This document shows positions 1,331 through 28,782 of a DNA stretch of 64,000 nt, one piece after another. The translations under genes and the position numbers were made by a program. This DNA is from Owenia fusiformis. Lineage: Eukaryota; Annelida; Polychaeta; Sabellida; Oweniidae. The stretch lies in contig CAIIXF020000012.1 in the NCBI GenBank assembly GCA_903813345.2, forward strand, positions 20,345,520-20,409,519. The letters are read 5' to 3'. The stretch's first letter is position 1, and the number at the start of each line of letters is the position of its first letter. Below the pieces are notes generated by a model. It made no database searches and had not been told where the DNA came from. It saw only the letters and a list, made by a program, of their open reading frames with translations.

Positions 1331-1675
1331 GCAGATATGTTGTTACATTATTAAATGTTCACAAAATGCCTTAAAGGACCAGGATCTGTATTGATTCCCT
1401 TCTAGCTCTCAATTACTTCACTTTTCTTGATTTTGATGAAATTGTCGAAATATCAAATAAGTGGCCTAAAATAATGAATTTACATGTTATCACATCACAC
1501 GTATTTCACAATGATCTAAGCTAGCTACTATACTAACGAAAATTTGCGAAATTCGACAATAAAGTAAAATATAATAGCAACTTATATCAAAATGAAAGTG
1601 ATATCCAAATGGAACTCATTAATCATGAGAATAAAAATATAAAAATACAAATTTCGTGTAAAGTGTTATTTAGTA

Positions 1676-2049
1676 CTCCCTGGACAGTTTCGAACCCATC
1701 GTCTCGGGAACCTAGCAAGTGCTTAAGACCACTAGGCCATCTTGACCAAGCCCTTATTGTTAAAGAATCTATTCGATTTTTACATTTCTCATAATCCTGT
1801 AAACAAATCAAAAAGATATACTATGCTAAAGGGCCTTCCATGAATTGAACTCAGGACGATAGCATTTTGAGCGAGTTAGTTGCCACAAAGCTATCTTGAA
1901 CAGACATATGAGACACAGAAATTTCTTGCATTTTGAAGTTTCATCGTAAAAATGTTACAAGAAAATAATAATAGATAGGGGACAGTAGGAATCGAACCCA
2001 TGACATTGAGGGCTTTAAGCGATCAACATACCATTGCACCAATGGGCCA
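1676..2049 (-). repeat. tRNA-like cluster, modules M1-M2-M3 (unit 1, first set)
   Basis: Three tRNA-like modules lie on the minus strand. M1 (1676-1752) resembles tRNA-Leu: D-arm AGATGGCCTAGTGG-like, then GATGGGTTCGAAACTG. M2 (1831-1905) has AAGATAGCTTTGTGGC and a weak B box (GAGTTCAATTC). M3 (1981-2049) has GGTGCAATGGTA and a consensus B box GGTTCGATTCC. Each keeps A-box and B-box spacing, but acceptor and T stems pair poorly. They are tRNA-derived repeats rather than working tRNAs. Confidence 0.6.
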
Positions 2050-2794
2050 ATGATACATTGCTCAAAGATATTTTACATTTTGATATTTTCTCTAATAAAG
2101 GTCTATTACACACTTGCTCATTTAAATGGAATCAATATACTTTTTCAAGGAAGACAACAAAAACGTTAAAATATGGTAAATTTACGAAAGGTAAAAGAGG
2201 AAAAAACTGAGTTCAAAATCTCAGTGGTGGTTGGTGGAAAACAAGTTGTTTGGCTCCAGGCTGAACAATAAGGACTATGATAGGGTCAATATTTGAGCAA
2301 TTAAACCCTAAATTGTCATTAATCACGAAGATTGTTTTTTAATCGTCGTTAATTCCTTTCTTAATCTCAGTGATATATGGTTGGTGGAAAACAAGTTGAA
2401 TGAGTGCAAAAACCATTGAAAATGTACTGAATTTCCATTTTGTCTATCATATATGTATACTATTATAATTTGCGTTTTGTGCAAAATAAACACCTGATTT
2501 TCTAACGAATTTTTGTCCGAGGTTGAACATTTATGACTATGATAGGGCCAATATTCGAGCAATTAAAGCCTAAATTATCACTATTCATGTGGGCTGTTCT
2601 TTTGTCATTAATTCCCTTCTAGTTCTCAATTCACTTTTCTTGATTTTGATGAAATTGTCAAAATACCAAATAAGTGGCCTAAAATAATGAATTTACATGT
2701 TATCACATCACATCTATTTCGCAATGATCTAAGCTACTATTCCAACGAAAATTTGCGGAATTCGACAATAAAGTAAAATATAATAGTTACTTAT

Positions 2795-3945
2795 ATCAAA
2801 ATGAAAGTGATATCCAAATGAAACTCATTAATCATGAGAATAAAAATATAAAAATACTAATTTCGTGTAAAGTGTCATTTAGTGCTCCCTGAACAGTTTC
2901 GAACCCATCGTGTCGGGAACCTAGCAAGTACCTAAGACCACTAGGCCATCTTGACCAAGCCCTTATTGTTAAAGAATCTATTCAATTTTTACATTTCCTA
3001 ATAATCCTGTACAAAAATCAAAAAGTTATACTATGCTACGGACCTGGCGTGAATTGAACTCAGGACGATAGCATTGTGAGCGAGTAAGTTGCCACAAAGC
3101 TATCTTGAACAGACATATGAGACACAGAAATTTCTTGTATTTTGAAGTTTCATCGTAAAAATGTTGCAAGAAAATAATTATACATAGGGGACAGTAGGAA
3201 TCGAACCCATGACATTGAGGGCTTTAAGCGATCAACATACCATTGCACCAACGGGCCAATGATACATTGCGCGAAGATATTTTACATTTTGATATTTTCT
3301 CTAATAAAGTTCTATTACACACTTGCTCGTGTATTTCGTAAATTTACAATATTTTAACGTTTTTATTGTCTTCCTTGAAAAAGTATATTGATTCCATATA
3401 AATGAGCAAGTGTGTAATAGACCTTTATTAGAGAAATATATAAATGTAAATTATCTTTGCACAATGTATCATTGGCCCGTTGGTGCAATGGTATGTTGAT
3501 CGCTTAAAGCCTTCAATGTCATGGGTTCGATTCTTACTGTCCCCTATCTATAATTATTTTCTTGTAACATTTTTACGATGAAACTTCAAATTGCAAGAAA
3601 TTTCTGTGTCTCATATGTCTGTTCAAGATAGCTTTGTGGCAACTTCCTCGCTCACAATGCTATCGTCCTGAGTTCAATTCATGGCAGGTCCTTTAGCATA
3701 GTATAACTTTTTTATTTTTGTACAGGATTATTAGGAAATGTAAAAATCGAATAGATTCTTTAACAATAAGGGCTTGGTCAAGATGGCCTAGTGGTCTTAG
3801 GCACTTGCTAGGTTCCCGAGACGCTGGGTTCGAAACTGTTCAGGGAGTACAAAATGACACTTTACACGAAATTTTTATTTTTGTGTGTTTTTATTCTCAT
3901 GATTAATGAGTTTCATTGGGATATCACTTTCATTTTGATATATTT
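2795..3945. repeat. Long inverted repeat carrying mirrored tRNA-like modules (unit 1)
   Basis: The left arm (about 2795-3328) and right arm (about 3400-3945) are reverse complements over ~540 bp, with a ~70-bp spacer. The left arm holds M1 (2885-2960), M2 (3041-3111) and M3 (3187-3258) on the minus strand. The right arm holds M3 (3472-3544), M2 (3619-3692) and M1 (3771-3846) on the plus strand. Flanking sequence including AAACTCATTAATCATGAG is mirrored too. The palindrome therefore contains whole modules, not just short terminal repeats. Confidence 0.8.
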
Positions 3946-4000
3946 TGCTTTTTCAATTGTGTACATTATTATTATAACGAATACATTGTTTAACAAGCAG

Positions 4001-4075
4001 GGCTTGTTCAAGATGGCCTGGTTGTCTTAGGAACATTATAGGGTCGCGATGCGCTTCGTTCGAAACTGCCAGGGA
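4001..4075 (+). repeat. Fourth tRNA-Leu-like module M4 (unit 1)
   Basis: A plus-strand tRNA-Leu-like stretch starts TTCAAGATGGCCTGGTTGTC and ends CGTTCGAAACTGCCAGGG. It is related to M1 but clearly diverged. It lies just outside the inverted repeat, and the equivalent module is at 25575-25649. Confidence 0.5.
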
Positions 4076-4846
4076 GTGTTTAATGACACACTTGTATTTT
4101 TCATTCACTAGCTTGTTGCTATGGCAATATATTGTAAACAAATAATTGTCATTTTCAAATAACATAATTTTTTAACATAGTTTTTTTCTTTTAATGGATG
4201 TTTCACGCATTGAATTTTTAGGTACTTCAAGGAACAAAGTCTCGCTGTTGCCATGGCAACCAAAGTTCACTTTCATATAGGGAATTATATTTATATTGAT
4301 GTATACTAAAGATATATGTATATAAAGCATATGCTAAAAGTTTCATAAATGTTTCTGTAAAAATGAATAAATTAGAGCAAAAGGAAACGACATTTTAAAT
4401 ACCCCTCGTACATTTAAGATTAGCATGATGCAAATTCTGTACATTTTCACTGGTTAATGCAATAACTTGATTTTCATTAACAATCACTTCGATTTTGAGT
4501 TGAACTTTTTTTCTCTTCGACCTTTTCAAAAAATTATAATTTAAACTTTTTTATTGTCCACCTTAAAAAAGTAAAATGATTCCATTCATATGAGAAACAG
4601 TGTAGTAGACCTTTCTAAGGGGAAACAATCAAGGTGTAAAATATCTTTGTGCCATGTATATATAATTCTCTTGTTGGCTCAGGGTAAGGAGGGGGGGGGG
4701 GGCTTGGATTCTTTTTTTACTTTATTTCGTTTCTTATTTATGTTCTTACTACAACTTTAATATCACATTTTAAGAAACTAAATCTGAACTAAAAATATGA
4801 AATTTCAAATGATGAATAAATGGTTTCTGAGGTTTGGTTTTAGCTT

Positions 4847-7217
4847 TCCGAGTGCACTTATAATCCATTTATCTAAAGCTGTATTATAGTTCGCATTTTC
4901 ATCAAGTTGGTTTTCGTTGGTTTTTGCAGCTACACATTGGTGCCCAATTGATGTCTTCAGAAGGAAGGGACACGAGGATATGAGATGCCTTAATTGATTG
5001 TTCCCAATAGAGGCTTTTCCATATAGCTTTGAAATCTCTAAAGACTAACATTTTCTTCTGTTTGATGGCATATTTGAATTATATGTGTATTTTTCTATCA
5101 GCATGGTAAAGAACTCTTTTCATATGTTGTAAAGGGGCATCTGATATAGGAGGGATGTGTACCATGAACAAAATCCTCTTTGTGAACATCTTCTTCATAG
5201 CAGCATGGGCTTTCAAAGCCCATGATAGCAGCATTGATTGATGATCCATGGCTTGCAGATCAGAATGATGTAACGCTTGAAAATAGGCATGACATCCAGC
5301 AGGGTATCGGTTCTGTTAATGCTGTGGTCAACTTAGGGTAGGTGCTCCATTGGTTCCAGACTGATGTCTTAGACTCTCCATTAATCCTGATACAATGGCA
5401 CACCCAATTATAGCATGGAATATTGGGAAACACATGGCTTTGAGGAGTCATCACATGTTGGAAAAATGTATCTACTATGACTACTACTTTGACTTTTGAT
5501 CATTCACTTATTCTCTCCTTTACATATACTATTGTATTTTTCCATTTTTCTTGATTGTGTCCAATGTTTCAATTACACTGCTTGACATTAAAACCTTAGT
5601 ATCAATCGTCACAGTTCCTTTGGGGTTGCCAAAAGAAGGAAGGGTTCCCTATATCATGGATAAGCTTGGTATGGGAATTTACATCATTTCTGAAGCTGGT
5701 CTGGTAGCTCACACTGTGTTCATGGCTTGCAAGGACTTCGTCATCATTATCCTTCATCTCATTTTCAAACTCAACTAACATTCTCGCCATCTCTGGCCCA
5801 CCAACCATCCACTTCTGTAATGCCATCAGGTTGTCAAACAACTCTACAGATCCTTTCTCACTTTTGATCACACTATTATATTCTTCATGGCATTTCTATT
5901 GGCATTGAGAAGCTTCTTCTGGACTTGCTGACAATAAAATGGCTTTCCATGAAAGCATTGTGAACTTCAGAGTGGGTTTCTTTGAGCTGAACCATATCAC
6001 TAAGGGTCTTAAAAGGTTCCTCTCACAAGAGTTTCATCAACACGTGCACCTGCATCTAATGCAGATATGTTGTTACATTATTAAATGTTCACAAAATGCC
6101 TTAAAGGACCAGGATCTGTATTGATTCCCTTCTAGTTCTCAATTACTTCACTTTTCTTGATTTTGATGAAATTGTCGAAATATCAAATAAGTGGCCTAAA
6201 ATAATGAATTTACATGTTATCACATCACATGTATTTCGCAATGATCTAAGCTAGCTACTATACTAACGAAAATTTGCGAAATTCGACAATAAAGTAAAAT
6301 ATAATAGCAACTTATATCAAAATGAAAGTGATATCCAAATGGAACTCATTAATCATGAGAATAAAAATTTAAAAATACAAATTTCGTGTTAAAGTGTTAT
6401 TTAGTACTCCCTGGACAGTTTCGAACCCATCGTCTCGGGAACCTAGCAAGTGCCTAAGACCACTAGGCCATCTTGACCAAGCCCTTATTGTTAAAGAATC
6501 TATTCGATTTTTACATTTTTCATAGTCCTGGACTATGATACAATAAGGACTAATAAGGACTATGATAGGGTCAATATTTGAGCAATTAAAGCCTAAATTG
6601 TCATTAATCACGAAGATTGTTTTTTAATCGTCGTAAATTCCTTTCTAAATCTCAGTGATATATGGTTGGTGGAAAACAAGTTGAATGAGTGCAAAAAACA
6701 TCGAAAATGTACTGAATTTCCATTTTGTCTATCATATATGTATACTATTATAATTTGCGTTTTGTGCAAAATAAACACCTGATTTCTAACGAATTTTTGC
6801 CCGAGGTTGAACATTTATGACTATGATAGGGCCAATATTCGAGCAATTAGAGCCTAAATTATCACTATTCGTGTGGGCTGTTCTTTTGTCATTAATTCCC
6901 TTCTAGTTCTCAATTCGCTTTTCTTGATTTTGATGAAATTGTCGAAATATCAAATTAGTGGCCTAAAATAATTAATTCATATGTTATCACATCACATCTA
7001 TTTCGCAATGATCTAAGCTAGTATACCAACGAAAATTTGCGGAATTCGACAATAAAGTAAAATATAATAGTAACTTATATCAAAATGAAAGTGATATCCA
7101 AATGAAACTCATTAATCATGAGAATAAAAATATAAAAATACTAATTTCGTGTAAAGTGTCATTTAGTGCTCCCTGAACAGTTTCGAACCCATCGTCTCGG
7201 GAACCTAGCAAGTACCT
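4847..7217. repeat. Tandem array unit 2, truncated
   Basis: This copies unit 1 from its start to the middle of the second M1 module (7167-7217). It lacks the section equivalent to about 1800-2265, so one M2-M3 pair is missing. At 7217/7218 the sequence jumps from the middle of M1 to the stretch equivalent to 1567-1582 (AAAATATAATAGCAAC). This suggests a deletion fusing two adjacent units, with a short TAA-type microhomology. An M1 module is at 6407-6483. Confidence 0.75.
5050..6075 (-). pseudogene. Relic of multicopy repeat-encoded protein, copy 2
   Basis: This is the second decayed copy of the protein described at 330-1330. The open pieces at 5602-5871 (KWMVGGPEMARMLVEFENEM) and 5260-5454 (FPNIPCYNWVCHCIRINGES) match copy 1 in order and strand. 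A short deletion near 5888 removes the DQAHE segment that copy 1 keeps, so the breaks are independent. Confidence 0.5.
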
Positions 7218-7307
7218 AAAATATAATAGCAACGTATAATAGACAATAGATAGATGGCGTATGTCATGGTTGACAAGTTTCAAATGCTCCGGTAAATAAC
7301 CGGAATT

Positions 7308-8210
7308 TTGTCTTTTTGTCTTGGAATATATCATATTAAAGTTCACCAAATGGATAATGAATGTGCCAGTGATACAAAGGACATAATTGGAGAGAAATGT
7401 GACACATATGAGGACCGTATACGACAGGAGAAAAAACGACAACGTTTATCATCAGGGGATATCAAAATGGCGTCAGCTAGTAAACCGTTGGACTTGTCGG
7501 ATCTGATGAATGAAATCAGAGGTGTAAAATCGTCAATTATGAAAGGACAGGCTAACATGGAACGTAAGATGGATGAAATGAAAACGGATTTGTCAAAGAA
7601 AATCGAGACCAGAATAAAACAGGTAAAGGATGAACTTTTTCTAGAAATGAGTGCCATGGAAACTAAGCTTAGTGCGCTTGAAATAAAGGTAAATTCCAAC
7701 ATGGCAGGGCAAGGTGTCACTGGAAATCAGCCAGCCCGAAATACCCCAAGCTGTATTGTAATATTTCGAAATGCTAAGCTCGTAACGACCAATGAGGATA
7801 CGATGCGAGGATTACTGTCAAGTATCTGTACTGCGATAGGCTGTGCTGATACCGAATTTACGGGCGTCACATGGATTGCATTACCAAGGGGTCAAAACAA
7901 CGGCATTATAAAGGCGACTGTCGCAACCGAGGCTCAAGTGAAAGCTCTTTTCAAAGCAAAATCTAAGCTCAAGGATACCCCCCAGTACGCTTCCATATAT
8001 ATTGAACGCGATCGATCCAGGCATGAGAGGATTATGGAAGCCAATATGCGTAACCTGGCTAAGGCTGTGCCCAACCTCACCTTCACCAGGGGTCGACTTA
8101 CCGTTAACGCCCAACCAGTTACCGCTGATCCCCCTGTAGTCCAAGCTCCTCCAAATGGTACCAATGTTAATACCCCACCGCAACCAGATCCTCCCCCCGA
8201 TAATGCGTAG
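7308..8210 (+). CDS. LINE ORF1 protein (coiled-coil, RNA-binding type)
   Basis: A 300-residue open frame. After a charged N-terminus comes a Met/Lys/Glu-rich heptad-like region (about residues 55-130, for example SSIMKGQANMERKMDEMKTD) expected to form a coiled coil. A compact domain follows (about 140-255), with strand-like segments such as SCIVIFRNAKL, as in LINE ORF1 RNA-binding proteins. The tail is Pro-rich. The role known for the family is RNA chaperone and RNP packaging. A start at 7350 (MDNECASD) is also possible. The frame ends in a single TAG, after which ORF2 continues in the same frame. Confidence 0.7.
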   Translation: MSFCLGIYHIKVHQMDNECASDTKDIIGEKCDTYEDRIRQEKKRQRLSSGDIKMASASKPLDLSDLMNEIRGVKSSIMKGQANMERKMDEMKTDLSKKIETRIKQVKDELFLEMSAMETKLSALEIKVNSNMAGQGVTGNQPARNTPSCIVIFRNAKLVTTNEDTMRGLLSSICTAIGCADTEFTGVTWIALPRGQNNGIIKATVATEAQVKALFKAKSKLKDTPQYASIYIERDRSRHERIMEANMRNLAKAVPNLTFTRGRLTVNAQPVTADPPVVQAPPNGTNVNTPPQPDPPPDNA

Positions 8211-11200
8211 AACACCCAGCCTATTACTATAGGGCATTGGAATATTAATGGGTGGCCTACCAAAAAGATCTCAAATGTGCGTTCACAAATAATTGATCAT
8301 GTGGATATGGATATACTAGCATTAAGTGAAACATACCTGAAAAATGTCGATGTAATTGATATAAATAAATATTCATGGTTTGGTCAAAATAGAGTTAATA
8401 TATCAACCAGAGCTAAATGTGGTTCTGGTGGAGTAGGTTTTCTTATTAAGGATACACTGTTGGATATATATGATGTTCAACGAATCGATTCAACATTTGA
8501 AGGAATATTATGGATCAAACTTGTCAACAAAAATGATGATGATTACTCAATTATTTTATGCGTATGTTATCTTCCCCCTGAACAATCGTGTAGGGGTAAC
8601 TCTGCGCAGGAATTTTATGATGCATTATTGACACAATTGTATATGTTTTCTGATAATTCTACGCCACTTGTCATCTGTGGAGACTTCAATTCAAGAATAG
8701 CGAATAAAGATGATTTTAACTCAAATATTGACATTTTACCTGAACGTACTTCGATTGATACTAAATCCAACAAATTCGGAGATTATCTGTTGGACTTTCT
8801 TAAAGATGGATGTCAGTGTATTATCAATGGTAGGGTTACTCATGAACACGATAATTATACATATATATCAACCATTGGATCATCAGTTGTTGATTACATA
8901 ATTACACCATACTATATGTTGGATTATATCAAACAATGTGGAGTTAAGGCAATCTCAGTCATCAAAAATGACGCAAATATTCGTGACAATACAAAACTTG
9001 ATCATTCTATTGTCTGGTGCGAAATTGAAATAATAACGCCAACAAATGTGCATCGAGCCCAAAACAGCAATTTTGCCACTACTCAGACGAAAACTTATAA
9101 TGATCCTGTTAACAGGAAATACGACAGAACAATTCCCATAGATATGTTTACTAGCGAAGGAGTTGCTCGGTCAATTGCCCGTGTCTGTGATCGCATGGAG
9201 ACATCTCTTAAATGCCAAAGTGAAATTGACAATATTTATGAAGAATTTGTTTCAATTTTACATACAGAAATGGACTCTAAATTAAAATTTAAAGACATTA
9301 AAACAAGCACGACTAGGAAATCTAAGTTCCGGCCAAAGCCCTGGTGGAATGAAGAACTTGAATCACTCTGGAAGGACGCTTGTATGCATGAAAAGCAATA
9401 CATCAAGCATAAAGGTTCCAATCGTGAAAAAACACACATACGAGATATATTTAAAAGCAAACAAAAACTGTTTGACAAGAAGTATAGACAGTATAAACGT
9501 AAATATGACTACGAAACACGAAATAACATACAGAAATTTGAAACTAGTAACCCCAAAACAATGTGGATGGTGAAAAGATCAGTGATGTAGACCAGGTTCT
9601 CAATAAATGGAAATCTGACTTCGAATCCCTTTTTAACAAAAACAATGGTGACTATGATGACATGTTCTTAAACGAATGCATGGACTTAGTTAACCGCTGG
9701 GAAGAGCAACTTAACTCGATAAACGCAGATACACGTTCTGATAATGAAGTTAATGATCAGGCTATTAACCATGGCGACTTAAACAACCCAATCTCTTTAG
9801 AAGAAGTGCAACATGCAATTCAAGGTCTTAAAGTTAATAAAGCCACAGGTATTGAAAATATTCCCAATGAAGTGCTGAAATGTAATGCTTTATTAAATGT
9901 GATTCACAAGCTACTACAAATGTGTTTTGAATACAGTATTATGCCAACCTGTTGGTCGAAATCTATAATTAACCCCATCCCTAAGTCTGAGAAAAAGACC
10001 CCAGGGTGCCCCTAAACAACAGGGGATCAGTCTCATGTCAACAGTGTGTAAAATTTTATCGTCCGTCCTGAACACACGACTGCACACATTCCTAGACGCA
10101 AATAATATACTGCACGATGAGCAGAATGGATTTAGGAAATTTCGTGCATGCATTGATCATTTGTACGCCCTTACAACAATATTACGTCATAGGTTGAGAC
10201 TTAAGGAGGACACTTTTGCCTGTTTCGTGGATTTTTCTAAATGTTTTGATTCAATTAATCACGACTGTCTATGGTATAAGCTACTTGAAAACAACATACA
10301 CGGTAAGATGTACTTAGCCATTCGATCTCTGTACACGCAAATTCTTTAGTGCCGTAAGACTTAATGGGAACTTAACTGACTGGTTTACCGCAGAGCTTGG
10401 ATGCAAACAGGGGGACCAAATTTCTCCGACACTCTGGTCCATCTTTGTGAATGACTTAGTCACGTCAATAAAAGGTCTTAATAATGGAATTAGGATTAAC
10501 GACGAATATATCTCAACTCTGCTTTATGCGGACGACATGGTGTTCATTGCGTCAACGGAACAGGATTTACAATTAATGTTAGATACAATGTACGTATGGA
10601 CAACGAAATGGCGTCTATCTGTAAATACAGAGAAAACCCAAGTAACACATTTCAGACGGGCTGCACGGCCAAAAACTGATTTTAATTTCACGTTTGGAAA
10701 TTCTAATTTAGTGATAACAAAATCGTATCGTTATCTCGGTCTTATCTTAAACGAGACACTGGATTACACCGAAACTGCAACAACATTAGCTGAATCCAGT
10801 GGTCGTGCACTTGGTGGACTTATCAGCAAACATTTTTCCATAAATGGATTAAACTTTAGCACATATACTAAGATATACGACAGTGCTATTGCCCCGATCA
10901 TGGACTATGGGTCAGGAGTTTGGGGATATAAGGAATTAAGCAAACCACAGCTAGTACAAAATCGAGCAATGAGAACATTTCTTGGCCTGGGTAAATACGC
11001 TCCCCTTCCAGCAATTTACGGTGACATGGGATGGATACCGCCTAACATCAGACACCGATTGGAGATGGTGAGACTCTTTATTAGACTAAGCAAAATGCCT
11101 AGAGATAGGCTGACTAGAAGAATTTTCGACTTTGATTATGAAAATGCTATCTTAGGACACAAATGTTGGTGCAAGGATGTAAGGGAAATATTTATATCTG

Positions 11201-11726
11201 CTAATTTACAACGTGAATATGAAACGAGACACTTTGGAGATAGTTCACTCATCCTCGATTCTGTTAAAACAGCGGAACTGCAACGATACATCGAAGAATG
11301 GAAACTTAAGATTGCCAATATGCCAAAACTAAGGACTTATAGGACATTTAAAACAACATTTGAAACAGAAGACTATGTCAAGATCTGTTTACCAAGGACA
11401 TTCAGATCATTGCTTGCAAAAGCAAGATCAATCACATTACCATTAATGCTGGAGACTGGAAGATATAGATCCACCCCAGTTGACCAGAGACTTTGCTTAC
11501 ATTGTAAGAACGATAATATATCCATTATTGAGGACGAGTTCCACTTTTTACTAGTATGCCCATCATATAAAAATCTACGAGAAGACTTATTTTTGTCTGT
11601 TAAACGTATTTTACAAAAACAAGAACTTATTATTGATGATGAACTTTTGAAACTGTTATTACATGACTTTAGATTAGTGCGCCATACTGGAAAATTCCTG
11701 AATGCTGCTCTTATCAAAAGAGCAAG
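8211..11726 (+). pseudogene. LINE ORF2 (endonuclease-reverse transcriptase), frame-broken
   Basis: ORF2 follows ORF1 in the same frame after one TAG. The endonuclease begins with GHWNINGWPTKK; its DILALSETYL, VICGDFNSRIANKDD and DHSIVWCE motifs are visible between about 8236 and 9030. The frame breaks near 9563-9590, again near 10005-10035, and near 10335-10349. The RT domain spans about 9780-10860, with FVDFSKCFDSINHD (about 10220) and the catalytic YADD box (about 10525). A C-terminal C-x2-C...H...C motif lies at about 11490-11560. The final codons are interrupted by the LTR element at 11727; the remaining three codons and a stop lie after 22164. Confidence 0.85.
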
Positions 11727-14522
11727 TGTGACGATCCTTCAGATTACTTTGAGCATGGTAATGGAATTGCCTTGAAGGATTGTCACTTTGTTTTCAACTT
11801 TTTGCTCTTCACTTTATCAATTGTGTTTTTAGTTACTCAATATTTCAAGAGTTATAAAATAATTTAAATTCTGTAAAAGGGTAGTCTGTATAACTACTTT
11901 GGCTATACTCTTAAAGTATGGTAAAAGTTTAATCATTATACTCTATATTCATATTTAGGTTAATAACCTTCTCCTGTGTTTTTCATGTAATATTATTTAC
12001 AGGTTAAATTCCCAATAATGCCAAATACGAAAAATAGACGCAAAAAACTACAAGTAGTTGGTCAAAATAGTTTATTGTACCTAACTAAACTAAAACAATA
12101 AACTATAGCATTAGCTAAAAATAGTACATGTTTAGTGCTTGGCTGCAGTAGCTGAAGTGATTAGATGATCTAGACATAATTAAAAGTTCATGACCTTTGC
12201 ATGAACTGCAGAACCAGATGGCAACCTCTATAATTTAAATCTATTTCAACTGAAATTAAACATTAATGTCAACATATATATTTTGTTCATAATAAGAGTT
12301 TAATGTGAAGGTTTTCGGCCCAGTTTCATGTTTAATGCTACGTTACAAACTTTTTAGAAAGGGCAGTTGTCTGGGTTTGTCTACAAAATCCAAAGTGAGG
12401 CTTATTAAGCTTGATTTAAGTAAATAAGCACGATTTAAGTGAATTGTCTTTTTCTGTGCTTTTATGATTCGAATTCAAGCCGGCCAGACATGGAAAACAT
12501 TTTGTGGAATTTTAAACATTAAATCGTCACTAAAATTGGATATTTATATTGCCGCAGATAAACCAACTTAGGTGTACGAGTTGGTAAAGGTAATTGACTT
12601 GATCTAATTGTATTTTTGCAGAGTTTTAGTCTTTGAAAAGAAGTATCTGTACACTTGACTTTTTCCTTAATTTTATTTATTTGCCTTGTGAACATCCCAT
12701 GTTTAAATTGTCCCAGGGATTGTTAAGGAACATTTGACAAGGTTAACGCAAGGTTACACGCAGAGTTTTTGTCTTAAAGAACCTATGTAACTTATTAACC
12801 AGCGTCGAAAGCAAGTTCCCGGGGTTCCTTGAAACCTCTTATTCAACATCCCCACAGGGAATCGTTTAGGAATATTTGACAAGGTGTACGAAAAGTTACG
12901 GTCTTTATGAACCTTATGTAACTTGCTCTAAACCAGAGTCAACTGCAAATTCCAGGGGTTCATAGACACCTCTATACGACATTCCCCCCCATCCAGTTTG
13001 GGACTGTATTTAGTTTGTTCACAGGGTAAATTTTATTGATACACTAGAAATACTCCTTTGTATATTTGTATGTTAAATTCTGGGTAATTTAAAGGTGAAA
13101 TCCCGGGCTTATGGGACCATTATCAAACAACTGATCATTGAAGTACTTTTAAGGATCACGGTCTTTCGAAGCCCATTTTCGGACTTAAGACACCCCCTCC
13201 CCTTCTAGTTTTCCATGTCTGGTCTAATTCTGTGTTAACCACATTCTTATTCATTGATTATAGATACTAGAATACTTTTAAAATACTGTTTCCCATTTGT
13301 TTGCCAATTGTACCATAGTCTGATAGTGGCAAAATGATGTTCCACTTTTCATGTGAGTAGTATAGGGAGCTTATTTCAACCCCCCCAGGGATGATATAAA
13401 ATTGCACTGTTAAGTTACATTTTTGGAAAAAGACCCATTTTAGGCTTTATTGCAAATTGTTTAACTGAACTTCCATTAGCTGTGCTGTTTTATGCATGTT
13501 TGGTTTGAGAGATTATTTACTTGATATTACCATCTCGACAGTACTGAATTGTGTAATGTTTGTGTAGATTAATAAATAGAAATAGAGTCGTTTTTATACA
13601 TTATATAAAAATCCACAGAATATCACTTGTTGTGTTCGATTGTTTTTTATATATATGTTAGAAAATCCCCCCCCCCTCATTTTATCTGAAGTAGATTCTG
13701 GATTCAAAATAGATTCCGACTAAATTCCAGGTGACTTTAGTGATACTAGCATTCAAGCAACAAGCTTTATCTTAGCTCATATTTGCTAAGGGCTTCTTTG
13801 AATAACAATCACTCGCAATAAGTCATACATTTATTTCCCCAGAAACTACGCAATAGTACAGATAAAGTACAATCTTACTTTCTTATTTAACCCTTGTCTT
13901 ATTGATAATATTAGTGAGAATTTCATTCACCCTAGTGAGTTTGACAGGCTGTGATTTGAAATGGCCCTACTTTAGTTCTTAAGTGTGAACAGCGAGCTTA
14001 ATATACAGCTTGAAGTCCATCGTAGCCCTCAAGTGGCTAGGACTTCCACCTGGTTATACTCACACCCTAACATTATACTTATTTGATACAACTGAACACT
14101 GGGCACATTCAGAATCTGGAGTCTGTTGCCATTTGCCTTTATGAGACATACAACTTACATTGAAAACTGACAAATCTTACTTAGTCTATATTCAGATTTT
14201 GTTATCCCGTAATTGTTATCCCGAAATTGTCCCACTTCATCCCAATTATTTTTATCCCAGAATTTATCCCTAAATTTTTATCCCTAATTTATCCCTAAAC
14301 TTATCCCTAAATTTTCATCGCAAAATTTATCCGAATTTGATCCCATTTTGTTATGATACTGTGAACACGGATGTTGTTCAAATAAATAAGGATATACATT
14401 TCAACTTTTACTTGAACTTGTCCCGAAACTAAGTTAATGAAAACATCAAATCAAACTATCGACTCTTAGACTGTATTCTGTTTACGACCCTCAAACCACG
14501 CTACCACACGAGGGTCGTAACA
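11727..14522 (+). repeat. 5' LTR (2796 bp)
   Basis: It begins TGTGACGATCC and ends GGGTCGTAACA. It contains a 258-bp segment starting at about 12004 that the 3' LTR lacks. Otherwise I see no difference from the 3' LTR, including an equal-length C10 run and the region of spaced TATCCC motifs at about 14200-14345. The LTR interior has no credible open frame. Confidence 0.9.
14201..14345 (+). repeat. Irregular TTATCCC repeat cluster inside the LTR
   Basis: About ten copies of TATCCC or ATCCC, spaced mostly 13-17 bp by A/T-rich filler such as TAAATTT. The cluster sits about 180 bp before the LTR end and is copied exactly in the 3' LTR at about 21841-21986. It could be clustered protein-binding sites in the LTR control region, but this is inference. 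Confidence 0.5.
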
Positions 14523-14526
14523 GAAA

Positions 14527-14544
14527 TGGTGGCAGCGGTGGGAT
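14527..14544 (+). promoter_or_regulatory. Primer binding site, tRNA-Leu type
   Basis: TGGTGGCAGCGGTGGGAT lies four bases after the 5' LTR. It is the reverse complement of the 3' end (with CCA) of animal tRNA-Leu of the AAG/TAG type as I recall it, which ends ATCCCACCGCTGCCA. Minus-strand cDNA synthesis would start here. Confidence 0.8.
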
Positions 14545-14650
14545 GTAATACTTGACGTATTGACCCAAGCCCAGTTTAACGCCATTACTTACGTTTATGC
14601 TAATTTTCACTCATTAATATTCAAAGCGAGATCATTAACTGTAATCAACA

Positions 14651-17101
14651 ATGTCGGAAAAGTCGGACATCTTAAATCTCGCAAAGCGCACCCCATTACC
14701 CGTGTCCGAATCCACGGAAAGACCCTTATCTAGCCGAAAATCGCAGGCGGAAGCTTTTGAAACTATTATCCCCGGGTGGTTTGATGATTCTGAAGTTGTA
14801 TTGGGCCATCAACACCTTAATGAACAAGAGTTGAAATTGGCTCAAGACGATACACTTCCACTTGAATCATCAGCAACTACACCACCCCCAATAAAGAGAC
14901 CATCTTTTAAGGTTTCTCCACCTGTCAAATTGATGCGCATTCCTAAATTACGGTTAGACACGCGTAGGCCACTTCCCAAGGGTAGGTTGTTTAATCCCCT
15001 GCTCAAAATGGTTAAGCAGGAGACTAAAGACCCAAAAAGTGACATGAATTTGGTATCTTCAAAAAAGGGTGAAAAAAGTGTGAGTAGTAGAGGTGGAGCA
15101 TATGAACCCCCCATAGCTGGTGCACCTGGGTCCCTTGAAAAGGAAACCTTGATGGGTGCTTATGGGGGAATGCCATCTAAAACACCTCCTTTAAAGCCTC
15201 TTCCAGCCTATGGAACAAGAGCTACTGCTAAACAAGCTTTTTCACCCCTCAGTTTAGCCCCCTATTTAAAAACGGATTTAGGGCCTAATGATCAAAGAAT
15301 TTTACACCCTAAGTATGAAAGGAAAAGTGATTCTCAAATTGTAAAGTCCTCTGAATTGCAAAAGCCATTGGAAAAACTGTCAACAAGGGGAACATTCCAA
15401 TCTAGAAAACCCTTAGATGTCCAAACACACCCTCATGCTTACCCTGGTAAGCCATCCAGTGCATCTACTCATACAGCTGGTAGAAAGTCTGGACAGGGTT
15501 TAATGACATCCACAAAGGTTTCTACTCATGGAAGATCTGCAAGTCATGGCAATTTTTCTGATTCAAACCCAAGCAAACATTCAATGCATACTTCTCCTCT
15601 ATTACCAACTGCGAATCAGAAAAGTGAGCCACAGAGCTGGCCAAACAAATTTCAGTCCTCTCCATTTAGACCCTTACTTCCCTCAATTAAAATAACTGAC
15701 ATTCCCAGATTTAGACCAAAGACCCCAGATTTCTCTCATTCCCGTGATTTGACACTGAAGTCCCCAATTAATGTCAAACAAGAGAGAAAAGATAACTATA
15801 CAAAGGCAAACTATGATTTGTTAGATCATTCTAGCAAAATGGGAGTAGTAAAGGATGTGCAAGTCAACTACCAGGTTCCACCCCTTCCTCCGGTGCTACC
15901 AGTACCTCATGAGAGTGACATGCTCCAGGAAGCATATGGGAGTGAACTGTTAAAACAGACTTTGCAAAGCTCTTTACTGATCCCATCTGATAGAATACCA
16001 CTCTCAATGTGTAATGATCTTAAATACACAAGAGGTTTGCCTAAAGAGGCACTATCAGCTGATGAGTCATATGATCTCAACAGGGATTTCCAGCTTCCAA
16101 ATGCCCCTAAAGTAACAAAAGAGATTACTCAATTAAGTGAACCTAACCAGTTGAAACACGCTGAATTTTTAATTGAGCAGACTGTTTCATACTTGGATAT
16201 TAAGTCTAAAAGTTATGAATGTATGGATCAACCCGAAAGTACCCTTTGTAGACAAGATTTAAAGAGGCCTAATGATAGAGTTTTATGTGAATCTAGTAAA
16301 TCCCCTCCTTGCAAAATCCAAGTTGTTGATAAATCTGATATGTTCAGTTTATCAGACAAATCATCTCAAAGCACTGAGTTTTCTGCCAATTGCAGACAGC
16401 CATATTGTCTACCCAAAAGTGTTGATCAAACATATGATTCACATTTGGAGACACGTTCATGGCTTGATGCTCAAATACCTGGCTATAACAGAAGTGCCTT
16501 GCCCTCCGATGAGATATCAGCCCAGGATGCTAGTAGTGTGTGCACACCTTGTCAAAACTTCCCCTTCAAACAGGGGGTAAACAAGGATTATGCTAGATCC
16601 TCTGAAGCTGAATCATTATTCCCCTCTCCAGAATATGAAACAGCTGTTGACTTTTCTGACCCAGATTATGTAGAAAATAGTATGAAATGCCCATCTTACC
16701 ATACAAAAACTAGACAAAGATCATTTTACTACATGAATAATTCTGACGAGTATGAATCTGCTATGGAAAATAGTTTTCCAACCCTTAGATCTACAGTTAT
16801 GAGTAGATCAAAAGTGAATTCAAGTTCCCCTGGTCTTTACAGACAGATTGAAGAACCCAATGATCTGTTTATATCCAGTCCTAATACATCTGATCAGGAA
16901 TCCTGTACTGGAGTTGAAAAGCAAAGAAGAGGTAATTCGTTTTCTACAAGGGAAATGAAAGCACCACTTTTCAATGGAAAGTGCAGTCTCTCAGCTTTTC
17001 TTGTCCAATTTAGACTTGTCTCTAACATAAATGGTTGGACAGATGAAGAATCTGCCATCTTTATGGTGAGGAGTCTTGAAGGAGAGGCTGTCAATGTTTA
17101 G
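14651..17101 (+). CDS. gag: Gag-like polyprotein, N-terminal part (frame-broken)
   Basis: An 816-residue open frame starts 107 bases after the primer site. Residues 1 to about 770 are low-complexity, rich in Ser, Pro, Lys and Thr, and probably disordered; I recognise no domain there, and it is far longer than usual for a Gag N-terminus. The last ~40 residues (FNGKCSLSAFLVQFRLVSNI, then GWTDEESAIFMVRSLEGEA) match the start of a Ty3-type Gag capsid domain. The frame stops at TAG 17099-17101, and the capsid domain carries on one frame over from about 17100. A single-base frame difference separates the two parts. Whether this is a mutation or programmed frameshifting is unknown. Confidence 0.8.
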   Translation: MSEKSDILNLAKRTPLPVSESTERPLSSRKSQAEAFETIIPGWFDDSEVVLGHQHLNEQELKLAQDDTLPLESSATTPPPIKRPSFKVSPPVKLMRIPKLRLDTRRPLPKGRLFNPLLKMVKQETKDPKSDMNLVSSKKGEKSVSSRGGAYEPPIAGAPGSLEKETLMGAYGGMPSKTPPLKPLPAYGTRATAKQAFSPLSLAPYLKTDLGPNDQRILHPKYERKSDSQIVKSSELQKPLEKLSTRGTFQSRKPLDVQTHPHAYPGKPSSASTHTAGRKSGQGLMTSTKVSTHGRSASHGNFSDSNPSKHSMHTSPLLPTANQKSEPQSWPNKFQSSPFRPLLPSIKITDIPRFRPKTPDFSHSRDLTLKSPINVKQERKDNYTKANYDLLDHSSKMGVVKDVQVNYQVPPLPPVLPVPHESDMLQEAYGSELLKQTLQSSLLIPSDRIPLSMCNDLKYTRGLPKEALSADESYDLNRDFQLPNAPKVTKEITQLSEPNQLKHAEFLIEQTVSYLDIKSKSYECMDQPESTLCRQDLKRPNDRVLCESSKSPPCKIQVVDKSDMFSLSDKSSQSTEFSANCRQPYCLPKSVDQTYDSHLETRSWLDAQIPGYNRSALPSDEISAQDASSVCTPCQNFPFKQGVNKDYARSSEAESLFPSPEYETAVDFSDPDYVENSMKCPSYHTKTRQRSFYYMNNSDEYESAMENSFPTLRSTVMSRSKVNSSSPGLYRQIEEPNDLFISSPNTSDQESCTGVEKQRRGNSFSTREMKAPLFNGKCSLSAFLVQFRLVSNINGWTDEESAIFMVRSLEGEAVNV

Positions 17102-17106
17102 ATGAT

Positions 17107-17802
17107 TTGGATGATGAAGACCTGCCAACCTTATCTAATATCATAAATGTCCTGAAAATTAACTATGAACCCCCTGAACAAAGTAACCATGCCCGTGCGG
17201 AGCTTAAACATAAGTTCAGGGGCAATAATGAGCCTCTCGAAAAGTTAGCCCATGATATCAGAAAATTATCAAGACAAGCTTTTGGGAAGTCAAGCATGTC
17301 AAAGAAGACAATTGATGACCTAGCTACACAGGCCTTCATTGATGCTTTGAATAATGAAGAACTGGAATCCAAGCTTTCTTTTTCTAACCCTAAAACCCTC
17401 AATGAAGCTCTTACCATGGCTTTACAATATGAGGCTTTCTTCAGGGGAAGAAAGAAAAGACTTGAACGTTTCCAAGACCCTGGTGTATGTGCTACTCCAA
17501 CTCCTGTTCAGGTTAACTCATCTACCTCATTATCTCTTTTTAAGAATGATGTGATGGAAATAGTTGAGCAAAAGATAGAGGCTTTAGCCAGAAATCTGAC
17601 TCAAACTATAACAAAGGAGAAACCTGATTCCAAACTGAAAAGAAAATACTGTAAAATATGTGACTCTGGAAGTCATTCAGTATTTGATTGTACCAAAAGA
17701 CATCCAAACTCCAAAGTTCCTGGAGCCACAGTATGCTTCTATTGTGCCCAGGACACTCACTGTGTAAATGCCTGCCCCTACCTTAAGGGTAGGCTAAGTT
17801 AG
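17107..17802 (+). CDS. gag: Gag-like polyprotein, C-terminal capsid and zinc-knuckle part
   Basis: A 231-residue frame continues the Gag capsid (YEPPEQSNHARAELKHKFRG; later LEKLAHDIRKLSRQAF) and ends with two CCHC zinc knuckles. These are C-K-I-C-x4-H-x4-C (about residues 185-198) and C-F-Y-C-x4-H-x4-C (about 212-225). Both match C-x2-C-x4-H-x4-C exactly, the RNA-packaging nucleocapsid signature. A stop follows seven codons after the second knuckle, and no protease follows. The ATG at 17107 need not be a real start. Confidence 0.85.
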   Translation: MDDEDLPTLSNIINVLKINYEPPEQSNHARAELKHKFRGNNEPLEKLAHDIRKLSRQAFGKSSMSKKTIDDLATQAFIDALNNEELESKLSFSNPKTLNEALTMALQYEAFFRGRKKRLERFQDPGVCATPTPVQVNSSTSLSLFKNDVMEIVEQKIEALARNLTQTITKEKPDSKLKRKYCKICDSGSHSVFDCTKRHPNSKVPGATVCFYCAQDTHCVNACPYLKGRLS

Positions 17803-19608
17803 CTTTTAAGCTAACTTGCATGAATGTATCTGTATAGTAAGTCCAAGCCACCACAGGTACATCATATCCTTCCAAAGAGTGGCTGGTGAAACCATATGTG
17901 TTTGATACCTAATGCCTTTATCTTTTATACTTCTTTCCCTTGGTCTACTTTTATGTTCATGTAAGTCACTTTTCTCAGTTAGAAAATGTGTGCTTATCAA
18001 TGTGAATGTAAGAAAGAAAACTTATTTTGTTTTTCTTTACTGAAGTATTCCTGTCCCATTCCTGATGTTTCTCATCTTATGTCTACCAGATGTCCTGAGC
18101 TGTTGAAGCTTTGATTCCTGATAAGCTTAAACTACAATGCTCAGTGGTAGTGATGACATGACCACAGCAGAGCATTATTTAATTGTTGATATGTTCTGGA
18201 TTACCAGTGACCTGCTTTACTCAAGCAATGGGGTTCATTGTGAACATTGGCCTGATCAACCAGTGTTTACAGACATGAACCCTGTTTACGCTTTGGGAAA
18301 CAAGTCTATTGAAATCCAAAGGACATTGCAATATAATAATAGTTTTGTCCCTGCTTCTGTTTAAATGGGGTAGATCAACTTGTGACCCTCTGGGGGTGAG
18401 TTCCACGATGGACAAGAGCTCTGTCCATTTGCTTCATCGAAGTGTTTCCCTACTACTGACTGTAGGTTCCCCTCATACCCCCAGTTCCACTTTCAAGCAA
18501 CTGTCCCAGCTTGTGACCCCATCCATAGCAATGGATGTTCCCACCAAGTTTGAATCCAACCTCAACTCCCTAACTGCCTTTGTACCAAAAAGGACTTGAT
18601 GACTGAATTTGAATCATTCTCAGTACAAATGTTATGAGATATTATCTGAATCCTTCCAATTGGAAACTTTTTGTGAAAGGATATATCTTGAAGATACGTT
18701 TGATTGATTCAATTTCATTTGACAACCCTTTACTTTTTGGCCAATTCATATCACATGTGTGATATTCAAAATTTATTATTATACTATGTGAATAACCAGT
18801 CTTATTTCCAGGACTGTAAAACTTTTATTCCAGCCCAGCATGAACCAAGTGATGACCTTCAACCTAATGAACATTGTACACTATGCTATATAAAAGTAAT
18901 CTGAACAGATGAACACTATCATGATTGCTGTTCGATTAAAGTGACTTATTTGGTGTACCCAATGAAGCAACGATATTGGGAGCCACTCTTAATATTGACA
19001 TTGAGAATTAAAGCTTATGAACAGAGACATGTACCCTATACGTATGAAAATTGATTCTGCAGCTTTGTGATGACTCTGCATTTTGAGGAATGACACGAAG
19101 AATGGCTAACAATCTCAATTTTATATTGTACTAGAGACCATTCCAAATACTAAACACATTCCCCTATTATAGTGGGGAACCAGTGACAATGACTGTATCA
19201 TCAATGAATGTGATGGTAAGAACGTTTGATAAACTTATACAAACAGTATGGATATTACTTCAACCCTTCACAAGAACCATAACCTACAAGAGAAAGATGA
19301 AAGACACTGATGCTGCTAGAGACATTTTTTTGTAATTAAACGTAATTATTAGATTATGCTAGCCTTTTTATGTTATGTATTTCAGATGAGAAAACAAGAA
19401 AAATGTAAACTAACATTGTATTTGATTTAGACTTATGTTTATTAAGTAGTAAACTGATTATACATTAAAACCTTATTGTGTATATATCTATCAATTCCTT
19501 TACTAAGTACTATGTTGCAAATGATGTGTGAAATGCTTACTTTAGGTAATGTGCTTATATATGATTTTGCATCTTTTATCAATAATTTCATAGTTCGAGG
19601 ACGAACTG
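17803..19608 (+). other. Non-coding internal region of LTR element where pol would be
   Basis: This 1.8-kb stretch lies between the gag stop and the polypurine tract. I searched all frames for protease DTG/DSG, RT YxDD, RNase H and integrase HHCC/DDE signatures and saw none. Only short frames (under 100 codons) occur. It is either deleted pol or captured unrelated sequence. Confidence 0.7.
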
Positions 19609-19609
19609 T

Positions 19610-19626
19610 TTTTAAAGGGGGAGCAG
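19610..19626 (+). promoter_or_regulatory. Polypurine tract
   Basis: TTTTAAAGGGGGAGCAG ends directly at the first base of the 3' LTR. The preceding TTCGAGGACGAACTG context is typical of Ty3/gypsy 3' ends. This is the expected primer for plus-strand DNA synthesis. Confidence 0.85.
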
Positions 19627-22164
19627 TGTGACGATCCTTCAGATTACTTTGAGCATGGTAATGGAATTGCCTTGAAGGATTGTCACTTTGTTTTCAACTT
19701 TTTGCTCTTCACTTTATCAATTGTGTTTTTAGTTACTCAATATTTCAAGAGTTATAAAATAATTTAAATTCTGTAAAAGGGTAGTCTGTATAACTACTTT
19801 GGCTATACTCTTAAAGTATGGTAAAAGTTTAATCATTATACTCTATATTCATATTTAGGTTAATAACCTTCTCCTGTGTTTTTCATGTAATATTATTTAC
19901 AGGATTAATGTCAACATATATATTTTGTTCATAATAAGAGTTTAATGTGAAGGTTTTCGGCCCAGTTTCATGTTTAATGCTACGTTACAAACTTTTTAGA
20001 AAGGGCAGTTGTCTGGGTTTGTCTACAAAATCCAAAGTGAGGCTTATTAAGCTTGATTTAAGTAAATAAGCACGATTTAAGTGAATTGTCTTTTTCTGTG
20101 CTTTTATGATTCGAATTCAAGCCGGCCAGACATGGAAAACATTTTGTGGAATTTTAAACATTAAATCGTCACTAAAATTGGATATTTATATTGCCGCAGA
20201 TAAACCAACTTAGGTGTACGAGTTGGTAAAGGTAATTGACTTGATCTAATTGTATTTTTGCAGAGTTTTAGTCTTTGAAAAGAAGTATCTGTACACTTGA
20301 CTTTTTCCTTAATTTTATTTATTTGCCTTGTGAACATCCCATGTTTAAATTGTCCCAGGGATTGTTAAGGAACATTTGACAAGGTTAACGCAAGGTTACA
20401 CGCAGAGTTTTTGTCTTAAAGAACCTATGTAACTTATTAACCAGCGTCGAAAGCAAGTTCCCGGGGTTCCTTGAAACCTCTTATTCAACATCCCCACAGG
20501 GAATCGTTTAGGAATATTTGACAAGGTGTACGAAAAGTTACGGTCTTTATGAACCTTATGTAACTTGCTCTAAACCAGAGTCAACTGCAAATTCCAGGGG
20601 TTCATAGACACCTCTATACGACATTCCCCCCCATCCAGTTTGGGACTGTATTTAGTTTGTTCACAGGGTAAATTTTATTGATACACTAGAAATACTCCTT
20701 TGTATATTTGTATGTTAAATTCTGGGTAATTTAAAGGTGAAATCCCGGGCTTATGGGACCATTATCAAACAACTGATCATTGAAGTACTTTTAAGGATCA
20801 CGGTCTTTCGAAGCCCATTTTCGGACTTAAGACACCCCCTCCCCTTCTAGTTTTCCATGTCTGGTCTAATTCTGTGTTAACCACATTCTTATTCATTGAT
20901 TATAGATACTAGAATACTTTTAAAATACTGTTTCCCATTTGTTTGCCAATTGTACCATAGTCTGATAGTGGCAAAATGATGTTCCACTTTTCATGTGAGT
21001 AGTATAGGGAGCTTATTTCAACCCCCCCAGGGATGATATAAAATTGCACTGTTAAGTTACATTTTTGGAAAAAGACCCATTTTAGGCTTTATTGCAAATT
21101 GTTTAACTGAACTTCCATTAGCTGTGCTGTTTTATGCATGTTTGGTTTGAGAGATTATTTACTTGATATTACCATCTCGACAGTACTGAATTGTGTAATG
21201 TTTGTGTAGATTAATAAATAGAAATAGAGTCGTTTTTATACATTATATAAAAATCCACAGAATATCACTTGTTGTGTTCGATTGTTTTTTATATATATGT
21301 TAGAAAATCCCCCCCCCCTCATTTTATCTGAAGTAGATTCTGGATTCAAAATAGATTCCGACTAAATTCCAGGTGACTTTAGTGATACTAGCATTCAAGC
21401 AACAAGCTTTATCTTAGCTCATATTTGCTAAGGGCTTCTTTGAATAACAATCACTCGCAATAAGTCATACATTTATTTCCCCAGAAACTACGCAATAGTA
21501 CAGATAAAGTACAATCTTACTTTCTTATTTAACCCTTGTCTTATTGATAATATTAGTGAGAATTTCATTCACCCTAGTGAGTTTGACAGGCTGTGATTTG
21601 AAATGGCCCTACTTTAGTTCTTAAGTGTGAACAGCGAGCTTAATATACAGCTTGAAGTCCATCGTAGCCCTCAAGTGGCTAGGACTTCCACCTGGTTATA
21701 CTCACACCCTAACATTATACTTATTTGATACAACTGAACACTGGGCACATTCAGAATCTGGAGTCTGTTGCCATTTGCCTTTATGAGACATACAACTTAC
21801 ATTGAAAACTGACAAATCTTACTTAGTCTATATTCAGATTTTGTTATCCCGTAATTGTTATCCCGAAATTGTCCCACTTCATCCCAATTATTTTTATCCC
21901 AGAATTTATCCCTAAATTTTTATCCCTAATTTATCCCTAAACTTATCCCTAAATTTTCATCGCAAAATTTATCCGAATTTGATCCCATTTTGTTATGATA
22001 CTGTGAACACGGATGTTGTTCAAATAAATAAGGATATACATTTCAACTTTTACTTGAACTTGTCCCGAAACTAAGTTAATGAAAACATCAAATCAAACTA
22101 TCGACTCTTAGACTGTATTCTGTTTACGACCCTCAAACCACGCTACCACACGAGGGTCGTAACA
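19627..22164 (+). repeat. 3' LTR (2538 bp)
   Basis: It starts TGTGACGATCC and ends GTCGTAACA, then CAAG and the resumed LINE. It lacks the 258-bp segment of the 5' LTR: the sequence goes from TTATTTACAGG straight to ATTAATGTCAACA at about 19903. Confidence 0.9.
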
Positions 22165-23167: not shown

Positions 23168-23264
23168 TACATATATCAAAATGAAAGTGATATCCAAATG
23201 AAACTCATTAATCATTAGAATAAAAATATAAAAATACAAATTCCGTATAAAGTGTTATGTAGTA

Positions 23265-23639
23265 CTCCCTGAACAGTTTCGAACCCATCGTCTCTGGAAC
23301 CTAGCAAGTGCCTAAGACCACTAGGCCATCTTGACCAAGCCCTTATTGTTAAAGAATCTATTCGATTTTTATATTTCTCATAATCCTGTAAACAAATCAA
23401 AAAGATATACTATGCTAAAGGGCCTTCCATGAATTGTACTCAGGACGATAGCATTTTGAGCGAGTAAGTTGCCACAAAGCTATCTTGAACAGACATATGA
23501 GACACAGAAATTTCTTGCATTTTGAAGTTTCATCGTAAAAATGTTACAAGAAAATGATAATAGATAGGGGACAGTAGGAATCGAACCCATGACATTGAGG
23601 GCTTTAAGCGATCAACATACCATTGCACCAACGGGCCAA
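23265..23639 (-). repeat. tRNA-like cluster, modules M1-M2-M3 (unit 3, first set)
   Basis: M1 is at 23265-23340, M2 at 23419-23492 and M3 at 23567-23639, all on the minus strand and in the same order and spacing as 1676-2049. B boxes are retained in M1 and M3, while M2 has lost one base of its weak B box. Confidence 0.6.
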
Positions 23640-25525: not shown

Positions 25526-25574
25526 TTTCAATTGTGTACATTATTATTATACTGAATACATTGTTTAAGAAGCA

Positions 25575-25649
25575 GGGCTTGTTCAAGATGGCCTGGTTGT
25601 CTTAGGAACATTATAGGGTCGCGATGCGCTTCGTTCGAAACTGCCAGGG
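25575..25649 (+). repeat. Fourth tRNA-Leu-like module M4 (unit 3)
   Basis: Nearly identical to 4001-4075, including the CGTTCGAAACTGCC B-box region. Confidence 0.5.
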
Positions 25650-27545: not shown

Positions 27546-27689
27546 TAGTTCGCATTTTCATCAAGTTGGTTTTCGTTGGTTTTTGCAGCTGCACATTGAT
27601 GCCCAATTGATGTCTTCAGAAGGAAGGGACACGAGGATATGAGATGCCTTAATTGATTGTTCCCATTAGAGTCTTTTCCATATAGCTTT

Positions 27690-28735: not shown

Positions 28736-28782
28736 TTATTAAATGTTCACAAAATGCCTCAAAGGACCAGGATCTGTATTGA

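Follow-up and report, generated by a model that had tools for sequence, protein, structure and literature searches.

Our analysis of a 64,000-nucleotide stretch of the genome of the annelid Owenia fusiformis (hereafter the window; positions 20,345,520–20,409,519 of contig CAIIXF020000012.1, here called C12, in an assembly of 498 Mb and 525 contigs) revealed an array of transfer RNA (tRNA)-like modules that, on balance, probably represents a long repeat specific to this contig, in which a decayed cluster of several tRNA genes has been amplified as an arm of ~610 bp and binding sites for transcription factor IIIC (TFIIIC) have been kept. The recurrent building block is this arm, with three modules in the order M3-M2-M1; a further, M1-type module, M4, lies beside some of the arms. 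The repetition is far beyond chance, and 29 arms were collected. The modules have lost the tRNA cloverleaf, and their B boxes, taken together, have changed less than the surrounding sequence, an effect that is due mainly to M1 and M2.

Genome searches at E ≤ 10 listed at least 32 matches to M3, 29 to M2 and 33 to M1/M4. All of them are on C12, where they form three clusters (I, II and III) at ~19.82–19.83, 20.34–20.37 and 21.24–21.28 Mb, spanning 1.45 Mb, and M3 fragments also lie near 21.196 Mb. These counts are lower bounds, as four of the five M4 copies known from local BLAST are absent from the matches listed, indicating that copies near 80% identity can escape and that diverged copies outside C12 are possible. 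For the part of the unit that carries no modules, 64 matches were listed, all of them on C12 except a 65-bp match on contig C1. An earlier note on this DNA, made from its letters alone, had proposed to search for the M1-M2-M3 order elsewhere; among the matches listed, the three types do occur together outside the window array, in two more clusters on the same contig.

In all 29 arms the modules follow each other at nearly constant steps, 148–156 bp from M3 to M2 and 147–149 bp from M2 to M1. Since a sequence counted as an arm if it matched a single reference arm over at least 420 bp, and shorter fragments were left out, the complete module order is partly a product of this choice. Incomplete copies comprise solitary or truncated M1 and M3 modules, and one arm in cluster III with M3 and M1 and without M2 (locus L007, 3589–3775). 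Between the arms of cluster III there are also two truncated M3-like remnants (locus L005, 3139–3173 and 4719–4753), which consist of the 5′ part of the module and its upstream flank, and in which no B box was seen. M1-to-M1 tandem steps measure 1194–1214 bp in cluster II, and the matches in cluster III recur over three copies with a period of 4451 bp.

Within the window, local blastn searches confirmed ten modules of ~80 bp at 1677–4077 in the order that the note had given, M1-M2-M3, M1-M2-M3, M3-M2-M1, M4. The minus-strand unit a carries M1 at 1677–1756 (96% identical to the reference M1), M2 at 1825–1903 (94% to the reference M2) and M3 at 1975–2052 (96%), and next to it lies the remainder of the ~1.2-kb tandem unit, which carries no modules (2130–2785, to which no strand applies) and was recognized by its repeat matches on C12. 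Unit b, likewise on the minus strand, carries M1 at 2886–2965 (96%), M2 at 3040–3112 (96% over 73 bp) and M3 at 3184–3261 (97%). These last three modules form the left arm of a palindrome (2788–3328), and the right arm (3334–3943), an inverted match to the left one, carries M3 (3470–3547), M2 (3619–3697) and M1 (3767–3846) on the plus strand. M4 lies at 3997–4077, also on the plus strand. A second set of ten modules is found at 23266–25652: blocks 1580–4888 and 23169–26463 are one duplicated segment of 3.3 kb, 95.5% identical over 3319 bp. The inner palindrome arms of ~540 bp, which had also been noticed before, are identical at 509/541 aligned positions (94.1%) in the first copy and at 506/543 (93.2%) in the second.

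M4 was rejected as a separate fourth type. It aligns with M1 at 54/67 positions and is therefore a relative of M1, so that the three sequence types of the earlier description stand and its fourth is a diverged M1. Likewise, ten modules per unit holds for the two copies in the window, whereas the other clusters differ in the number and orientation of arms. Outside the ten-module blocks, the window contains a decayed and truncated M3-type remnant on the plus strand at approximately 4541–4690 (upstream flank and M3 5′ end; local alignment score 130, with 0/300 shuffles as high), a solitary minus-strand M1 at 6408–6487 (98%) and a truncated minus-strand M1 at 7170–7219 (96% over 50 bp).

Alignment to tRNAs indicates that M1 very likely descends from a tRNA of the leucine type and M3 probably from a tRNA, with proline as the closest type, and that the likeness of M2 is marginal. 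Global alignments were made with 8 tRNAs of this genome and 14 other tRNAs, and compared with 500 shuffles (first-order Markov resamplings, as in all our script-made shuffles) and 2000 72-mers from elsewhere in the window. The module score was reached by 0/500 shuffles and 0/2000 72-mers for both M3 and M1, and by 5/500 and 2/2000 for both M4 and M2, which makes sequence descent from a tRNA marginal for these two. In local alignments with 8 tRNAs of the genome itself and 7 others, shuffles scored as high in 1/1000 cases for M1, 1/1000 for M3, 20/1000 for M4 and 73/1000 for M2, so that M2 is not clearly tRNA-like in this comparison. The M1 arm consensus matches the genome's own tRNA-Leu(CAG) at 25/29 positions, starting at tRNA position 1. 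For M3, the best global match is tRNA-Pro (46/73 between the arm consensus and the own gene; the 0/500 and 0/2000 above refer to a panel with a tRNA-Pro from among the 14 others), with tRNA-Ile second. tRNA-Gly, our first guess for M3 by eye, ranked fifth in the global alignment and was rejected; the exact tRNA-Gly string had no match in the genome, which shows the absence of that string alone. The term unusual compound tRNA-derived repeat, used in the note, thus fits M1 and M4 (Leu type) and M3 (Pro best), but M2 only marginally.

Despite this likeness, none of the modules behaves as a real tRNA gene, and they were rejected as such on the basis of ARAGORN, Rfam and folding. ARAGORN at default settings called no tRNA in the window and none in the five loci that were scanned out of eight cluster loci; at an 80% threshold it made weak calls of M3 and some M1 copies, and also of places outside the modules. 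No Rfam family reached its gathering score in the window, and no tRNA match at E ≤ 10 was obtained over 1500–4300. The sole Rfam line at E ≤ 10 in the latter region is MIR530, with E 0.074 and 25.3 bits compared with a gathering score of 85; it lies across the palindrome centre and was attributed to chance from the inverted repeat. A covariance model built from 13 tRNAs of this genome detected the M3 modules of the window block through their T arm, with 12.4 bits in unit a, 12.4 in unit b and 8.7 in the right arm, and M1 with 3.7 bits; the best scores in four other loci were 17.1 bits for M3 and 12.8 bits for a cluster III M1. These scores of the genome's own model stand against the negative results of Rfam and of ARAGORN at default settings. 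RNA folding z-scores are shuffle-like for M3 (+0.53), M1 (+0.66) and M4 (+0.43), whereas two genuine tRNA loci scored −2.78 and −1.92. Together with the Rfam and default ARAGORN results, they support the view that the tRNA stems have decayed.

M2 folds differently. It forms a hairpin of 11 pairs with 96.2% of cells paired and a fold z-score of −2.50. Shuffles were as high in 0/500 cases for the covariation score, in 40/500 for pairs with two-sided change and in 31/500 for pair types. The main two-sided change is carried by 6/19 distinct rows, so that the hint of a structured RNA is weak. The copies in the module alignments were chosen by hand (A2, 10 M1 and 3 M4; A3, 11 M3; A4, 20 of the 29 M2 copies).

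Strings that resemble the A and B boxes of an RNA polymerase III (Pol III) promoter persist, although the cloverleaf is lost. A scan for A/B box pairs found 17 sites with a score of at least 15 in the window, of which 13 are M1 or M3 modules, compared with 0–5 sites in five shuffles; at a score of at least 13, the window (195 sites) is hardly above the shuffles (147–187). In the right arm, the boxes lie at 3481–3534 in M3 and at 3775–3837 in M1. The box pair of M4 scores 14. Moreover, the B box is followed by a run of at least four T's in each of the 29 arms, the first such run starting 18–24 bp behind it in M3, 26–34 bp in M2 and 25–40 bp in M1; from a random position, such a run is met within 24 bp in 20% of cases, within 34 bp in 24% and within 40 bp in 28%. 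Between the boxes, such a run occurs in 1/86 modules with the A box placed before the B box. At the sequence level, M1 and M3 therefore carry the parts of a type-2 Pol III promoter, i.e., an A box, a B box and a nearby T-run.

Rates of change were counted by parsimony on a tree of the 26 distinct arms among the 29. Columns with an occupancy below 60% were dropped, and tests were confined to columns 90–565 because both arm ends have inflated rates. The B boxes show 0.24 changes per site, compared with 0.76 in the other columns of this range. An equally low rate was seen in 0/426 largely non-overlapping shifts of the B boxes (2/474 of all shifts), and random placement of three B boxes gave one in 68/50,000 cases (17/20,000 when normalized by base). 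In line with this, the consensus of cluster III differs from that of clusters I and II at 0/33 B-box positions, 1/36 A-box positions, 16/220 positions of the modules and 35/255 positions outside them. Clusters I and II alone gave values as low in 80/20,000 cases.

Live tRNA genes in the same genome are also arranged in tandem. There are five tRNA-Leu(CAG) genes 171–172 bp apart, nine tRNA-Pro genes in 2.4 kb, several of them 162–165 bp apart, and five tRNA-Lys genes 365–367 bp apart; in a genome search with RF00005, 63 of 33,565 candidates were scored, so that this picture of the tRNA genes is partial. Such arrays make a cluster of tRNA genes plausible as the ancestor of the array, and that ancestor would then have combined different tRNA genes. 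Two further loci, L023 (C2, 4.338 Mb) and L027 (C11, 21.54 Mb), contain tRNA-Leu-like repeats with a CAA anticodon and an intron, as judged by eye, at steps of ~178–181 bp and ~300 bp; ARAGORN calls no tRNA in either locus.

The best-supported use of the modules would be that their B boxes still bind TFIIIC. Each arm would then present a row of up to three TFIIIC-type sites in steps of ~150 bp and might act as a platform for chromatin organization or boundaries. As box-like strings and T-runs are present, the modules may in addition yield transcripts of ~100 nt other than tRNAs. In both palindromes of the window, the modules of the left arm read leftwards and those of the right arm rightwards, away from the centre, so that hairpin RNA is not expected from the window modules and would need a promoter outside them. 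In cluster I, neighbouring blocks also converge (in locus L002, plus strand at 3758–4136, then minus strand at 4695–5302), and opposed transcripts are conceivable there from this arrangement.

Several observations weigh against a repeat with retained TFIIIC sites. The slow change is unevenly spread: single B boxes taken on their own were matched in 460 (M1), 2109 (M2) and 14,473 (M3) of 50,000 random placements, the M3 box being ordinary, and 841/50,000 placements were as low when M2 was left out. M2 itself has no box pair scoring at least 14; its boxes were positioned by visual inspection, and the string taken as its B box agrees with the consensus at only 4/9 positions. The A boxes (0.50 versus 0.74 changes per site) are not significantly slow (6214/50,000; base-normalized 1109/20,000), nor are the B boxes of cluster III alone (4072/20,000), and the spacer stretches that precede M1 and follow M3 change almost as little as the B boxes do. 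Furthermore, the array copies share a history and sequence exchange between them may occur, and T-runs are frequent in this AT-rich DNA. As for the origin, the top match of M3 in the local alignments was the genome's own tRNA-Ile, none of the fetched tRNA arrays mixes Pro and Leu genes, and comparison of the array flanks with these arrays gave weak lines at chance level and no convincing homology.

Many of these points are what one would expect of a neutral relic. In this scenario, a multi-tRNA cluster that has died and serves no function today was copied passively by segmental duplications, both tandem and inverted, and the conservation of its boxes reflects chance or recency. The missing tRNA fold in M3, M1 and M4, the truncated modules and the arm without M2 fit this scenario, as do the ordinary M3 B box, the A boxes, cluster III and the slow spacers. 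The array has also been amplified together with dispersed sequence: copies of a repeated sequence at 153–1390, 4895–6126 and 27546–28784 of the window, with a partial copy beside cluster I, were swept into the same duplications. The reduced change of the B boxes as a group speaks against a relic of this kind. So, if only by a small difference, does the comparison of M1 with M4, in which 20/23 box positions and 34/44 other positions are kept. Overall, we consider a purely neutral history unlikely, although it is the alternative that deserves most weight. The repeat at 153–1390 has at least 41 further matches on ten contigs (40 of 576 candidates scored), of which at least 36 concern a part of ~500 bp at ~759–1271 with 73–85% identity, on ten contigs; this part overlaps a minus-strand open frame without Pfam match.

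Alternatively, the arm could go back to a compound short interspersed element (SINE) with several fused tRNA heads, which became trapped at a later time and then multiplied as a satellite. There are descriptions of tRNA-related SINEs becoming tandem repeats (PMC10702118), and as the genome searches miss copies at ~80% identity, including the four M4 copies, diverged dispersed copies may exist. However, all module matches listed at E ≤ 10 are on C12, the matches listed for the remainder of the unit include a single short one off C12, and each module is followed by its own T-run, so that a retroposing compound element would have needed read-through. Classification as a dispersed SINE found no support, no dispersal having been seen at the sensitivity of BLAST, which also missed four M4 copies. 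We regard a compound SINE as improbable. The same T-runs after each arm module, together with promoters that diverge from the centre in both window palindromes, argue against the palindrome as a source of hairpin or small interfering RNA transcribed from the module promoters, and the suggestion of clustered Pol III promoters producing hairpin RNA found no support in the window. One strand of the whole palindrome does fold at −873 and −838 kcal/mol in the two copies, a stability owed to the inverted repeat itself, and some neighbouring blocks of cluster I converge; a hairpin-producing role nevertheless appears very improbable to us.

The contig-specific repeat with kept TFIIIC sites could also be taken further. 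An old cluster of different tRNA genes might have been exapted as a phased row of TFIIIC sites at ~150 bp, its B boxes being selected after the tRNAs had died. Amplification and mirroring at three sites within 1.45 Mb might then have made it a regulatory repeat private to this chromosome, whose copies serve as platforms for boundaries or for TFIIIC clustering, and M2 might additionally give rise to a small structured RNA. We consider this extended version doubtful and offer it tentatively. A unit that joins several tRNA-derived promoters at fixed steps, has lost the tRNAs, has changed less at the TFIIIC-type boxes and has its listed copies on one chromosome would be a natural test of whether selection on TFIIIC sites can serve the architecture of chromatin instead of the production of tRNAs. 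The tRNA-derived tandem repeats, as summarized in PMC10702118, carry a single tRNA-like segment each, in contrast to the several segments at fixed steps here.

TFIIIC sites without a tRNA product are known as extra TFIIIC (ETC) sites and TFIIIC insulators, and the predicted TFIIIC sites of the array would work in the same manner; the modules described here differ in that an A-box-like string and a T-run are still present in them. Different tRNA types within a repeated unit are a feature of the tRNA arrays of Entamoeba. The Arabidopsis SYY cluster likewise combines different tRNA types in one repeated unit (PMC12308677). As in Entamoeba, these arrays consist of tRNA genes, whereas the Owenia array lacks the cloverleaf, has mirrored units and consists mostly of non-tRNA DNA.

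By its anatomy, the array belongs with the tRNA-derived Pol III tandem repeats of amphibians, i.e., OAX/satellite I of Xenopus, PolIII/TAN of the newt and Rana/polIII, which are summarized as tRNA-like in PMC10702118, the newt repeat being transcribable in vitro according to the same source. With OAX and PolIII/TAN it shares the tandem arrangement of a tRNA-derived Pol III-type promoter, and with the amphibian repeats in general a tandem repeat that contains a tRNA-like segment. The amphibian repeats, however, have one such segment each as summarized there, while the Owenia array has several in ~150-bp steps, is mirrored, and has its listed copies on one contig. Satellite DNA forms long head-to-tail arrays in heterochromatin; the array described here shows short runs of units plus inversions. 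Squamate SINE-derived satellites are similar in being tandem repeats from tRNA-related Pol III elements that are less amplified than typical satellites (PMC10702118); they differ in that no parent SINE was found in the Owenia genome at the sensitivity used. Helenus terminal-repeat retrotransposons in miniature (TRIMs), with tRNA-like long terminal repeats, are likewise repeats that contain a Pol III promoter derived from a tRNA (PMC10886601), whereas the array has no dispersed copies among the matches listed. We found no report of such an array among the open-access papers searched, judged by title and the start of the abstract.

The window contains several other repeats, and comparison with a phage collection gave no match. 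Two direct repeats of 2261 bp, 100% identical, at 12262–14522 and 19904–22164, flank open reading frames (ORFs) of 818 and 240 amino acids without Pfam match at E ≤ 0.01, the shorter of which has a zinc-knuckle-like motif by eye. From its sequence, 12262–22164 resembles a long-terminal-repeat element of recent origin, although the ten bases on either side show no obvious target-site duplication. At 7296–11775, ORFs in several frames resemble a non-LTR retrotransposon (endonuclease PF03372, 2.9e-13; reverse transcriptase PF00078, 5e-19). A tandem repeat with a 40-bp unit and ~44 copies occupies 30561–32331, and a genome search with its first 400 bp listed this place alone. Another, with a 46-bp unit repeated ~35 times or more, occupies 39667–41390, where long open frames remain. 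Finally, an inverted repeat at 44211–45232 has arms of ~429 bp that are 89.7% identical, a spacer of 164 bp, and a 17-bp G-rich/C-rich doublet at its inner ends.

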